Source: Halanaerobium sp. MA284_MarDTE_T2
GTDB taxonomy: Bacteria > Bacillota > Halanaerobiia > Halanaerobiales > Halanaerobiaceae
DNA: 64,000 nt
Assembly: GCF_003337245.1 (NCBI RefSeq)
Contig: NZ_QPJE01000001.1
Span: 62,001 to 126,000, forward strand
Direction: 5' to 3'
The translations under genes and the position numbers were made by a program. Below the pieces are notes generated by a model. It made no database searches, was not told the origin of the DNA, and was given only the letters and a program-made list of their open reading frames with translations. This document shows, one piece after another, positions 582-18,503 of this stretch (position 1 is the stretch's first letter; each line of letters opens with the position of its first letter).

Positions 582-2816
582 ATGAATAGTACTGTCAGAG
601 TAATAGTTGATATTCCAATTGCAGATCTGGATCGACCTTTTGATTATCTGCTGCCTGAGGAATTAGAAGGGGAAATTAAGATAGGTCACCTGGTAAAAGT
701 ACCTTTTGGTAAACGAAAAATTTCTGCTTTTGTGGTAGATATAAATGTAAAAGTGGAGATAGATCCAAAAAAATTAAAAAAAATTGATAATAAAGTATAT
801 GATGAATCATTTTTTGATAGAAAAATGCTGAACCTCTACAGGTGGACAGCAAAATACTACCATAGTTATTTGATACAGGTTATTAAGGCAGCACTGCCTC
901 CGGGTGTCCTTGATAAAAGAGTTAGGAAAAAGACAGTTAGATATTTAAGATTAACTTCAAAAGCAAAAAAGAAAACAGAAGAAATCAAAAAACTTAAAAA
1001 AAGAGCTCCAAAACAGTATTTAATTTTAAAATATTTTTTTGAAAATGAGGAGAATAAAATAACAGTAAAAGAAGCGGCACAGGCGGCTGAAACATATCCG
1101 AAAACTGTATATAGTTTACTAGAAAAAGATCTGCTTGAGTATTATAATATAGAAGTATGGAGAAAACCAGAAATTTTTAAAGGTGATTTTTTATCAGATG
1201 ATTTCAAACTGGATAAAATGCAGTCAGAAGTATTTAATGAAATTTCAAAATCAATACAGCAGGAAAACCAAACTTTTTTATATAAAGAAGTGTTGAAAGA
1301 AAAAAGAAATATATTATACTTTAAACTTATTGAAAAATTGGTTGAGGAAAATAAAGGTGGAATTTTACTGGTGCCAGAAATTATGATGGCATCTAAAATA
1401 GTTAAAAAACTAAAAAATATTTTTAACGAAAAAATTGCCATAATCCACAGTCAGCTTTCTGCAGGTGAGCAGTTTGATGAATGGCGCAGAATTAGATCGG
1501 GACAGGCATTTATTGCAGTTGGAACACGTTCTGCAGTATTTGCTCCTGTTAAAAATCTCAGCTTAATAATAATTGACCAAGAACATGATGAAAATTATAA
1601 ACAGAATGAATTTCCAACCTATCATGCCCGTCAGGTTGCTGCAAGACGTGTGCAGGATAACAATTCTGTACTTTTTTTGTCTTCTCCCACCCCCTCGATT
1701 GAAACAGAATATTTAGCTGCAGTTAATAAATATCAAAAACTTATGCCTGATGATGAATATATTAATAATAGTATTCCTTCTGCTGAAATAGTTGATATGA
1801 AATTGGAATCTGAAAAAGGGAATTTGAGCAATTTCAGCACTGTGCTGATTGAAAATATGAAAAAAACTTTGTCAGAAAAAAAACAGGTATTTCTTTTTAT
1901 GAACAGGAGAGGTTTTGCAAATTATATAATTTGCAAAAAATGTGGTCATGTTATAAAATGTGATAATTGTGATATAACTTTAACCTATCATAAAGAAGAA
2001 AAAAAGCTTATCTGCCACTACTGTGGAAAAGAAAGCAAGATTCCAGAAAAATGTTCGGAATGTGGAAGTGAATTTATTGGCGTATCTGGAATGGGCACAG
2101 AAAAAATTGCTGATGAAATAAGAGAGATATTTCCAGATAAAATGATAGCCAGGCTGGACGCAGATGTTTCTGATGATAAAGATAAATATAATAATATATT
2201 AAAAAAATTAAAAAATAAAGAAATTGATATACTGGTTGGGACCAGAATGGCTGTAAAAAGTGAGTATTATACCAATGTAGGTTTAATAGGTATAATTTCT
2301 GCAGATACAATTTTGAATATTCCTGAATTCAGATCAGCCGAAAGAACTTTTCAGCTTTTGACACAGCTTTTATTGATAGATCAAAATTATGAAAGAAAAT
2401 TAGTAATACAGACATTTAATCCTGATCATTACAGTATTAAAATGGCAGCTGATTTTAATTACAGTGACTTTTATAATATAGAAATTAATATAAGAAAAAA
2501 GAGAAATTATCCACCTTTCAGCAGGCTGGTTAATATAATTATTCAGGGAGATAATGAGAAAAATGTTATTCATACTTCAGAAAAATTAGATAGATTTATT
2601 GATATACACGGCAGTTATGATGAAAAGATTGGAGCGGCTCCAGCTTATTTAAAAAAAATAAGAAATAAATTTAGATGGCAGATCATTTTAAAATTTGGAT
2701 CCTTTCGCAGTAGAGAATATCTTCTGCGGTTAATTGAAAAAAAATTTCATAAAAAAAGTGAAGTGTTTGATGATGTAAATATTCGTATTGATGTAGATCC
2801 ATATAAAATGTTATAA
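582..2816 (+). CDS. priA: Primosomal protein N' (PriA) with eroded helicase motifs
   Basis: PriA recognises stalled replication forks and reloads the replisome; the usual protein is a superfamily-2 3'-5' helicase. The 744-residue length and the overall order of domains are normal. The N-terminal DNA-binding domain is present, the eight zinc-site cysteines are intact (about residues 451-494: CKKCG, CDNCD, CHYCG, CSECG), and the ERTFQLLTQ and YPPFSRL segments are recognisable. The ATPase motifs are not. Where family members have GVTGSGKTE (about residues 230-245) this reads LYKEVLKEKRNILYF, with no Walker A. DEEH is DQEH, SAT is SPT, and the arginine-finger motif QVAGRAGRG after LLTQ is replaced by LLLIDQNYERK. 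The frame is continuous and the protein is full length, so this is not a pseudogene by truncation. It is likely the first gene of the operon running to thiN. I infer a structural primosome loader without helicase activity, as has been described for actinobacterial PriA-like proteins. Confidence 0.93.
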   Translation: MNSTVRVIVDIPIADLDRPFDYLLPEELEGEIKIGHLVKVPFGKRKISAFVVDINVKVEIDPKKLKKIDNKVYDESFFDRKMLNLYRWTAKYYHSYLIQVIKAALPPGVLDKRVRKKTVRYLRLTSKAKKKTEEIKKLKKRAPKQYLILKYFFENEENKITVKEAAQAAETYPKTVYSLLEKDLLEYYNIEVWRKPEIFKGDFLSDDFKLDKMQSEVFNEISKSIQQENQTFLYKEVLKEKRNILYFKLIEKLVEENKGGILLVPEIMMASKIVKKLKNIFNEKIAIIHSQLSAGEQFDEWRRIRSGQAFIAVGTRSAVFAPVKNLSLIIIDQEHDENYKQNEFPTYHARQVAARRVQDNNSVLFLSSPTPSIETEYLAAVNKYQKLMPDDEYINNSIPSAEIVDMKLESEKGNLSNFSTVLIENMKKTLSEKKQVFLFMNRRGFANYIICKKCGHVIKCDNCDITLTYHKEEKKLICHYCGKESKIPEKCSECGSEFIGVSGMGTEKIADEIREIFPDKMIARLDADVSDDKDKYNNILKKLKNKEIDILVGTRMAVKSEYYTNVGLIGIISADTILNIPEFRSAERTFQLLTQLLLIDQNYERKLVIQTFNPDHYSIKMAADFNYSDFYNIEINIRKKRNYPPFSRLVNIIIQGDNEKNVIHTSEKLDRFIDIHGSYDEKIGAAPAYLKKIRNKFRWQIILKFGSFRSREYLLRLIEKKFHKKSEVFDDVNIRIDVDPYKML

Positions 2817-15573: not shown

Positions 15574-16446
15574 ATGATAGCTTTGGTAACAGACAGCACA
15601 TGTGATTTATCTGAAAAGATTCTTAATAAATATAAAGTAGAGGTTGTACCATTAAGTGTACATTTTGGGGAAAAAGTTTATCAGGATAAAATAGACTTAA
15701 AAACTGATGATTTTTTTTCCATGATGGAAAAATCTCAAAAACTTCCAACTACTTCTCAACCGTCTGTGGGAATGTTTTTGGAAAAATATGAAAAGCTGGC
15801 TGAAAATTATGATCAAATTATATCAATACATCTTTCAGCAGCATTAAGTGGAACTTATAAATCTGCCAAATTAGCTTCATCAGAGATCGAAAAAATAGAT
15901 GTTGCGGTTTTAGACTCTAAATCAACCACAGCCGGACTTGGCTTTCTGGTTATTATGGCAGCAAAATTAATAAATAAAGGTCTTAAATTTAACGAAATTA
16001 TCAAAAAAATTGAGAGTGCCAGAGAAAAACTGACTATTTTTTTTACAGTAAATGAACTGACTTATTTAGAAAAAGGTGGAAGAATAGGTAAAGCTCAGTC
16101 ATTAATTGGAAATATATTGAACTTCAATCCTGTTCTTGAAATATCAGGTTTAACTGGAGAAGTGGAGCCTAAAGAAAAGGTGAGGGGCTATAAAAGAACA
16201 AATAGAAGATTAACAGAACTGACAAATGATTATATTGCAGATAGTTCTCAGGTAAATATTTCTTTTGTATATGGGCGTAAAACAGATAATTATAATCAAT
16301 TTAAAAATTTTTTGCAGGCTAGTTTGTTGGAAAAAGAAAATCTTGATTATAATATTTTTTCTAATAAAATAGGGGCAGTGTTAGGCTGTCATGCTGGACC
16401 ACTTGTTTATGGTGTAGTTGTGTTAAAAGGAGAATTACTAGACTAA
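15574..16446 (+). CDS. DegV-family fatty acid-binding protein, FakB-like
   Basis: Binds a fatty acid and presents it to FakA for phosphorylation. The 290-residue product has the DegV family features: N-terminal VTDSTCDLS (about residues 4-12), the TTSQPSVG loop (about 58-65), HLSAALSGTY (about 88-97) and the LTYLEKGGRIGKAQ segment (about 161-174). A strong AAGGAG site precedes the ATG, 14 bases after fakA. Its stop overlaps the recG ATG (TAATG). Ligand chain preference cannot be read from the sequence. Confidence 0.9.
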   Translation: MIALVTDSTCDLSEKILNKYKVEVVPLSVHFGEKVYQDKIDLKTDDFFSMMEKSQKLPTTSQPSVGMFLEKYEKLAENYDQIISIHLSAALSGTYKSAKLASSEIEKIDVAVLDSKSTTAGLGFLVIMAAKLINKGLKFNEIIKKIESAREKLTIFFTVNELTYLEKGGRIGKAQSLIGNILNFNPVLEISGLTGEVEPKEKVRGYKRTNRRLTELTNDYIADSSQVNISFVYGRKTDNYNQFKNFLQASLLEKENLDYNIFSNKIGAVLGCHAGPLVYGVVVLKGELLD

Positions 16447-18503
16447 TGAACATTCAGTTAGAAAAAGAAGTACAGTATGTAAAAGGTGTTGGTCCAAAAT
16501 GGGCTGAATTTCTTGAAAAATTAAATATCAAAACAGTTAAAGATCTGCTGTATTATTTCCCCCGAGAATATGAAGATCGCCGCCAGATTACTGAAATGAG
16601 ATATGCCAGTCCAGGTCAGCAAGTAAATCTAAAAGGTAGAGTGCTTAAGGTTGAGTTAAAAAAAATCAGAAAAGGTTTTGATATTTTAAAAGTAACTTTT
16701 TCTGATGATACTGATGCTGTAAATGGTATATGGTTTAATCAGAATTATCTTCAGAGTAATTTTAAAAAGGGGGAATTTTATTTATTAACAGGTAAAATAA
16801 GTGAAAAGAATTGGAGAAAATATAAAAGTAAAGATATTAATAATCCTGTTTACGAAAAACTGGATGTAGATTATCCTATTTTAAATACGGGCAGAATTGT
16901 ACCTATATATTCACTGACTGAAGGAATTAGTCAGCGAAAGCTAAGAAGAATAATATCCAATGCTTTAATTGATTTAAATGATAATCTTAAAGAACTGCTG
17001 CCTGATTATATTTTAAAAAAATACCATTTTCCTACTTTAAAAAAATCACTGTCTGCAGTACATTTTCCAAAAAATAAAAAAGATTATATTTCTGCCCATA
17101 TGAGGCTTGCTTTTGAAGAGTTATTTCTTTTTCAGCTTTATTTTTTAAATGAAAAAAAGAAATATAATATTGAAGATGGAATAAAACATGATTACAAAAA
17201 AGAAAAAATGGATAGTTTTATCAATAGTCTGAAATTTGATCTTACAGATGCACAAAAAAGAGTTTGGCAGGAGATAAGAAATGATTTAGAAAGAAAACAG
17301 CCTATGTTACGTCTGCTGCAGGGGGATGTCGGTTCCGGTAAAACAATTATTGCTGCACTTGCATTATTAGAAACAATTGCAAATGGTTATCAGGGTGTAT
17401 TTATGGCTCCAACAGAAATTTTGGCTGAACAGCACTATTTAAAATTCAAAGAACTATTTGCTGATTTTAACTATAATATTGAAATTATTGTGGGAAGTTT
17501 AAAATCTTCAAAAAGAGATTCACTAGAAAAAGCAGTAGCAAATGGAGAAATCGATTTAATAATAGGTACCCATGCCCTTTTTCAGGAAAGCATAAACTAT
17601 CATAAAATCGGTTTAATAGTTATAGATGAACAGCACCGCTTTGGAGTTGAACAGAGGCATAAATTAAAAGAAAAAGGAGATAGACCTGACCTTTTAATAA
17701 TGACTGCTACTCCGATTCCGCGGTCTATGGCAATGCTGATTTATGGTGATCTGGATCTTTCAATAATAGATGAGATGCCTCCAGGTAGAAAAACAATTGC
17801 TACTTTCTGGAGGAGAAAAAATAGAAGACCAAAAATTTATAGTTTTGTTCGAGACAAAGTAAAAGAAGGCAGACAGGCATATATAGTATGTCCCCTCATT
17901 GAACCTTCAGAAGAAATGCCGGAGCTTGTTTCTGCTGAAGAACTTTATGAAATTTTGGGTGATAGTATTTTTAAATATTTTGAAATTGCTTTAATTCACA
18001 GCCAGATAAATGCTGAAGAAAAGAAAGATATTATGGATGCTTTTAGAGATGGGAAAATAGATATACTTGTTGCAACAACTGTTATTGAAGTAGGGGTTGA
18101 TGTTTCTAATGCTACAATAATGGTTATAGAAAATGCTGAACGATTTGGGTTGGCACAGCTGCATCAGCTGCGGGGAAGGGTTGGAAGAGGGAAAACACAG
18201 TCATTTTGTATTTTGATATCTGATCCTCCTGGAGAAGATGCGGAAAGAAGGCTGGAGATAATGACCCACAGCAGTGATGGTTTTTTAATTGCAGAAGAAG
18301 ATTTAAAAATGAGGGGACCAGGTGAATTTTTTGGCACTAGGCAGCATGGTATTGATGATTTGAAAGCTGCCAACCTTATTGAAGATAAACATATTCTAAA
18401 AAAAGCTAGAGAAGAAGCTTTGAAAATGGTAAAAGACATTAGATGGGAAGAAAAATATCCTCTTCTCAAAGAAAAAATAGAAAATATAAAATTAAAGATA
18501 TAG
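16446..18503 (+). CDS. recG: ATP-dependent DNA helicase RecG
   Basis: Reverses stalled forks and branch-migrates Holliday junctions. The wedge OB domain occupies the first 240 residues or so. The helicase motifs are intact, in contrast to priA in this window: Walker A GDVGSGKT (about 293-300), APTEILAEQH, DEQHRFGVEQR (about 394-404), TATPIPRS, and motif VI QLRGRVGRG (about 574-582). The TRQHG segment near the C-terminus is the usual RecG tail. Length, 685 residues, is normal. It is translationally coupled to the degV gene by a one-base overlap. Confidence 0.97.
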   Translation: MNIQLEKEVQYVKGVGPKWAEFLEKLNIKTVKDLLYYFPREYEDRRQITEMRYASPGQQVNLKGRVLKVELKKIRKGFDILKVTFSDDTDAVNGIWFNQNYLQSNFKKGEFYLLTGKISEKNWRKYKSKDINNPVYEKLDVDYPILNTGRIVPIYSLTEGISQRKLRRIISNALIDLNDNLKELLPDYILKKYHFPTLKKSLSAVHFPKNKKDYISAHMRLAFEELFLFQLYFLNEKKKYNIEDGIKHDYKKEKMDSFINSLKFDLTDAQKRVWQEIRNDLERKQPMLRLLQGDVGSGKTIIAALALLETIANGYQGVFMAPTEILAEQHYLKFKELFADFNYNIEIIVGSLKSSKRDSLEKAVANGEIDLIIGTHALFQESINYHKIGLIVIDEQHRFGVEQRHKLKEKGDRPDLLIMTATPIPRSMAMLIYGDLDLSIIDEMPPGRKTIATFWRRKNRRPKIYSFVRDKVKEGRQAYIVCPLIEPSEEMPELVSAEELYEILGDSIFKYFEIALIHSQINAEEKKDIMDAFRDGKIDILVATTVIEVGVDVSNATIMVIENAERFGLAQLHQLRGRVGRGKTQSFCILISDPPGEDAERRLEIMTHSSDGFLIAEEDLKMRGPGEFFGTRQHGIDDLKAANLIEDKHILKKAREEALKMVKDIRWEEKYPLLKEKIENIKLKI

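Follow-up and report, generated by a model that had tools for sequence, protein, structure and literature searches.

The priA Locus and Its Product

The window, by which the whole analysed stretch of 64,000 nucleotides is meant, carries a priA gene in the order metK-priA-def-fmt-rsmB-rlmN, which is usual for this gene. The metK-priA-def-fmt neighbourhood is common to the window genome and to relatives whose PriA is intact. The main features are as follows.

582..2816, + strand: priA, encoding a putative PriA pseudohelicase of 744 amino acids (TIGR00595, Pfam domains, AlphaFold model)
597..899 (aa 6-106), + strand: 3'-DNA-binding domain (3'BD), conserved (PF17764, E=5.5e-28)
1197..1871 (aa 206-430), + strand: helicase lobe 1, with its motor function apparently lost (site retention, rate)
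1932..2063, + strand: cysteine-rich zinc region, 8/8 cysteines kept (PF18319)
2502..2813 (aa 641-744), + strand: C-terminal domain (CTD), conserved (PF18074, E=1.4e-16)
16446..18503, + strand: recG, an intact SF2 helicase, used as a control and regarded as a candidate fork remodeller (motifs, rate)

The priA frame begins with ATG and runs through 744 codons without an internal stop. All eight zinc cysteines are present (positions 451, 454, 460, 463, 478, 481, 491, and 494), so that a full-length frame with an intact zinc site, as described in an earlier note made from the sequence of this DNA alone, is indeed found. The protein reaches 497.5 bits against TIGR00595 (cut-off 230.35) and scores under the cut-offs of the stricter PRK05580 equivalog models. 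The Pfam cut-offs are exceeded by PF17764 (3'BD), PF18319 (zinc ribbon), and PF18074 (PriA_C). The AlphaFold model (pLDDT 84) shows a confident PriA fold, and its best PDB matches in Foldseek are the PriA structures 4nl4, 6dgd, and 8fak. No second PriA was found in the window genome (2.47 Mb, 99.8% complete).

Erasure of the Motor Motifs

The sequences that mark an active SF2 helicase (Walker A GxTGSGKT, Walker B DEEH, motif VI QxxGRxGR) are absent from the window PriA. The motifs were read from an alignment that contained 18 intact, complete PriAs from the order of the window genome and one incomplete one.

1284..1319 (aa 235-246), + strand: erased Walker A, KEVLKEKRNILY in place of HGVTGSGKTEVY
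1575..1586 (aa 332-335), + strand: degraded Walker B (motif II), DQEH for DEEH
1587..1631 (aa 336-350), + strand: segment after motif II, DENYKQNEFPTYHAR, largely retained (invariant residues)
1680..1694, + strand: degraded motif III, SSPTP for GSATP
2238..2267, + strand: degraded motif V, GTRMAVKSEY for GTQMVAKGHD
2364..2390, + strand: erased motif VI, QLLLIDQNY for QVAGRTGRG, with 1-2 residues deleted

In the alignment, the Walker A sequence GVTGSGKTE is replaced by KEVLKEKRN (aa 236-243), with arginine at the position of the catalytic lysine, and AKGHD of motif V is replaced by VKSEY. The P-loop pattern [AG]x4GK[ST] does not occur anywhere in the window PriA. The decay of Walker A, DEEH, SAT, and motif VI, which had been noticed without any alignment, is thereby confirmed, and motif V is to be added to the list. 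The earlier note had also named two findings that would speak against its reading, a second intact priA and a Walker A elsewhere in the protein; neither was found. Judging from these motifs, the window PriA is predicted to be without ATPase activity.

The segment that follows motif II has a different fate, with Y339, K340, P345, Y347, and R350 invariant across 23 PriAs. This stretch (aa 336-350) is presumably the HD1 loop. The HD1 loop of PriA wedges into the fork junction (PMC10175261).

Distribution and Single Origin of the Loss

The genus of the window is represented by one genome, and Halanaerobium is the large genus of the family. The motifs are lost in all 11 full-length PriAs of these two genera, whereas the 18 other complete PriAs of the order are all intact: one is from G013, which represents the family's third genus, and 17 more were checked. 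The same motifs as in the window PriA are missing from each of the 10 full-length Halanaerobium proteins, which read LEEN, MEEN, or LDEG at the DEEH site. In the 11 species or strains, the full-length frame is open and the zinc cysteines are complete (8/8 in all). An eleventh Halanaerobium genome contains PriA fragments only, and from a twelfth (75% complete) no PriA was obtained. A second PriA was not found in the Halanaerobium genomes, in which weak extra matches cover a RecG-like motor region only. Because all ten full-length Halanaerobium PriAs share the same motif losses, in frame and in ten separate genomes, an error of sequencing or assembly, or a frameshift artefact, confined to a single genome can be dismissed as refuted. 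The earlier reading as a settled loss, applied to the ATPase motifs, is supported.

Trees were built with FastTree, and their branch lengths are approximate. The window genus and Halanaerobium form a monophyletic clade in the PriA tree and likewise in a tree of ten neighbouring genes (support 1.0 in both), and G013 branches next. In a larger tree of 133 proteins, the PriAs of this clade stay with the intact PriA of G013 (support 0.991). There are 16 sites common to the window PriA and at least 8 of the 10 Halanaerobium PriAs that are found in no intact PriA. These shared derived residues include the arginine at the Walker A lysine, Phe298, Tyr448, and Leu596. The simplest account is one motor loss in the common ancestor of the window genus and Halanaerobium. 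The comparison with Halanaerobiales PriAs and the mapping on a tree, which the earlier note had recommended, therefore place the loss clade-wide in both genera and as a single event. It probably began with the change of lysine to arginine in Walker A, which was followed by free drift of the ATP site. Such a first step is plausible because the same change is found fixed in Deinococcus-Thermus and, as K230R, abolishes the ATPase activity of E. coli PriA (PMC4504706).

Selection on the Remaining Protein

Rates come from branch lengths that were fitted on the tree of neighbouring genes and are given relative to these genes. The relative rate of PriA is about 1.0 on intact branches, 2.0 in the pseudohelicase clade, and 2.3 on its stem. 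For 12 other genes, including those of RecG, DnaB, DnaI, and DnaD, the ratio between pseudohelicase and intact branches ranges from 0.56 to 1.27 (RecG 1.09), and no acceleration of DnaB, DnaI, DnaD, or RecG together with PriA was seen. Within PriA, the same ratio is 3.41 for the helicase lobes (3.32 for lobe 1 alone) and is unchanged in the 3'BD (1.01) and the CTD (0.90). The cysteine-rich zinc region (1.63) and the winged-helix/linker region (1.33) are mildly accelerated, and therefore some contacts of PriA with its partners may have changed. Near-invariant sites are retained in the window PriA at 12/12 positions in the 3'BD, 17/18 in the cysteine-rich region, and 16/17 in the CTD, and at 58/84 in lobe 1 and 37/58 in lobe 2. 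The dN/dS values of PriA, usable for two close Halanaerobium pairs only, are 0.118 and 0.073.

PriA might simply be dispensable in these halophiles, with an open reading frame that is non-functional or dying and drifts. The doubled rate of the whole protein and the absence of the catalytic motifs could be understood in this way. Nevertheless, such an explanation is very improbable: a dying gene would hardly keep a full-length open frame in 11 species or strains, 8/8 cysteines in all of them, its gene order, and a dN/dS of 0.07-0.12, and the intact rate of the 3'BD and CTD is a domain-specific constraint that contradicts drift. The pattern is that of a PriA which is still under selection and of which the motor alone has been released, rather than that of a dying gene.

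It can also be asked whether ATP is still bound or hydrolysed by a rearranged, non-canonical site. The fold of the lobes is preserved in the AlphaFold model, and a few residues adjacent to the motifs are invariant (PE of PEI and the second Glu of DEEH), as might be expected of such a site. However, all five ATP-site and motor motifs are lost, the residues at the old Walker A site vary freely across the 11 pseudohelicase sequences, and the rate of the lobes has risen 3.4-fold. A cryptic site of this kind is regarded as improbable, though less so than a dying gene.

Putative Primosome Partners and Other Helicases

One gene row, or operon, of the window genome (L175:2749-6292) encodes DnaB, the replicative helicase, together with a DnaD-domain protein and an AAA+ protein of the DnaI/DnaC type whose P-loop is intact; the DnaD-domain protein is a weak match near the model cut-off, and the putative AAA+ loader scores under the DnaI/DnaC equivalog cut-offs. 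A DnaD-domain match is present in 37 of the 38 genomes of the order. DciA is absent from 37 of the 38, including the window genome, and was rejected as an alternative loader on this ground. The sole DciA-family match in the 38 genomes (L084, G030:C56:2778-3035) lies in a genome that has DnaD-domain genes too. The loss of a stand-alone DnaD was likewise rejected as a cause, since G013, with its intact PriA, also has just a single DnaD-domain open reading frame.

RecG of the window retains GSGKT, DEQH, TATP, and GRVGRG, in agreement with the earlier statement that it keeps its motifs, and RadA is present in the window genome. In a single-contig Halanaerobium genome, radA is split into two overlapping frames (G002:C1:2139962-2141307) by a frameshift or a sequencing error. 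Within the family (14 genomes), canonical RecQ is patchy in Halanaerobium (8/12 genomes), and neither the window genome nor G013 has it. RecQ was rejected as a replacement helicase, as the window genome lacks it.

These helicases bear on the possibility that the motor role has passed to another helicase, newly gained or specialised, that works with the PriA of this clade. RecG in the window and RadA in the genome would be at hand for it, and RadA/Sms of B. subtilis can expose the lagging strand (PMC10804225). Against such a hand-over, RecG shows no acceleration in the clade, RecQ is missing or patchy, RadA also occurs in the relative whose PriA is intact and has a split gene in one genome with a pseudohelicase PriA, and no gained helicase was found among the candidates checked. 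The hand-over is thus considered unlikely, although it is the strongest of the competing explanations.

Proposed Mechanism of Restart without a PriA Motor

It is very probable that the window protein is an orthologous, functional PriA turned pseudohelicase, which binds abandoned forks and nucleates helicase loading without ATP, its motor having been lost once. PriA would recognise abandoned forks or D-loops with the 3'BD and CTD, the zinc region, and those parts of the helicase lobes that still contact DNA. By way of the DnaD-domain protein and a AAA+ loader of the DnaI type, it would then nucleate the loading of the replicative helicase, with no ATP hydrolysis and no unwinding of the nascent lagging strand by PriA. 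If opening of the lagging strand is needed, it could be performed by RecG, RadA, or another helicase. The window PriA is predicted to retain fork binding and to perform the loading step, and replication restart in these Firmicutes apparently proceeds without the need for PriA unwinding.

Experimental work on other bacteria is consistent with such a division of functions. In E. coli, restart by PriA-PriB in vivo does not depend on the ATPase and helicase activities of PriA, and DnaB loading assays have been carried out with the K230A protein (PMC10175261). PriA of D. radiodurans, with its change of lysine to arginine, lacks ATPase and helicase activity, yet it binds ssDNA, forks, and DnaB (PMC4504706). 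From these precedents we infer that the window PriA recognises abandoned forks and passes them to DnaD-like and DnaI-like loaders without unwinding. According to a review, the importance of the motor for restart in B. subtilis is unclear given conflicting results on whether it is needed (PMC10804225). A broader proposal, to which we give slightly better than even chances, is that PriA of bacteria with DnaD/DnaI-type primosomes is an ATP-independent loading scaffold whose motor is optional and has been shed repeatedly through the lysine-to-arginine change in Walker A, with the whole genus Halanaerobium restarting replication motorless.

The value of this case lies in an independent loss in a Firmicute whose primosome appears to be of the DnaD/DnaI type, for which the need for the motor is disputed (PMC10804225). 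A Firmicute genus with a constrained but motorless PriA is a natural experiment on this need, and cultures of Halanaerobium species exist. Additionally, the contrast in rate between the lobes and the DNA-binding domains separates the needs of loading from those of unwinding, residue by residue.

Further Motorless PriAs beyond the Order

A sample of 104 PriAs from the phylum, in which the twenty weakest matches were deliberately included, was read by alignment. The Walker A lysine is kept in 102 of the 104. In the clades of the two exceptions, every readable PriA is motorless, 3/3 in the family of G270 and 15/15 in the order of G250, and the zinc region of these PriAs has at least eight cysteines. 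The first family (L160, L257, and L258, from G270, G333, and G332) has lost Walker A and motif VI, with sequences such as GDGRLE and DDEH, and has kept the zinc cysteines. In the order of G250 (L164, L260-L273), the former Walker A is occupied by a conserved replacement pattern, such as WGSxxFRWxxY, with arginine. Arginine aligns with the Walker A lysine in both Bacillota clades, the column being less certain in the order of G250, where there is a two-residue insertion. The PriAs of the two clades group together in the 133-protein tree (support 0.978), which reflects either one loss or long-branch attraction; the phylum thus holds one or two further losses. The earlier note called such a loss notable in a Firmicute; among Firmicutes it is not unique to the window clade.

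Outside the phylum, two PriAs from Nitrospirae MAGs (L218 and L219) are missing Walker A, Walker B, and motif VI, which is counted as one more loss. Like the window PriA, the pseudo-PriAs L160, L164, L218, and L219 have lost Walker A and motif VI and kept the zinc cysteines. Their origin is separate from the Halanaerobium loss, and all four have lost the FDY-motif Asp of the 3'BD, which the window PriA keeps.

Comparison with Known Systems

The earlier note regarded the loss of PriA helicase motifs as established in actinobacteria. No paper supporting this was found, although it may still be true, and the documented precedent is Deinococcus-Thermus (PMC4504706). Among the papers searched, none joins Halanaerobium, PriA, and helicase. 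One of the closest known systems is the Deinococcus-Thermus PriA (Lopper et al. 2015, PMC4504706), which is also full-length and has a Walker A lysine changed to arginine and a decayed Walker B. The window PriA resembles it in having lost the Walker A lysine and retained the DNA-binding domains. However, it belongs to a different phylum, and the distribution seen here points to a separate origin. The decay in the window clade is also more complete, with no trace of Walker A and with motifs III, V, and VI lost too, and its primosome has putative DnaD/DnaI-type loaders.

The canonical Firmicute PriA (B. subtilis type; G013 and other Halanaerobiales) is encoded by the orthologous gene, and gene order, domains, zinc site, and putative DnaD/DnaI partners are alike. 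In the window clade, by contrast, the ATPase motifs are all erased and the helicase lobes are released from constraint. The helicase-dead E. coli mutants K230R and K230A are altered at the same site, and they indicate that a primosome can be assembled without ATPase. Those are laboratory point mutants, whereas the loss described here is natural, old, genus-wide, and spread over several motifs. PriA pseudohelicases are already known, and Halanaerobium together with the window genus is a new, independent case.
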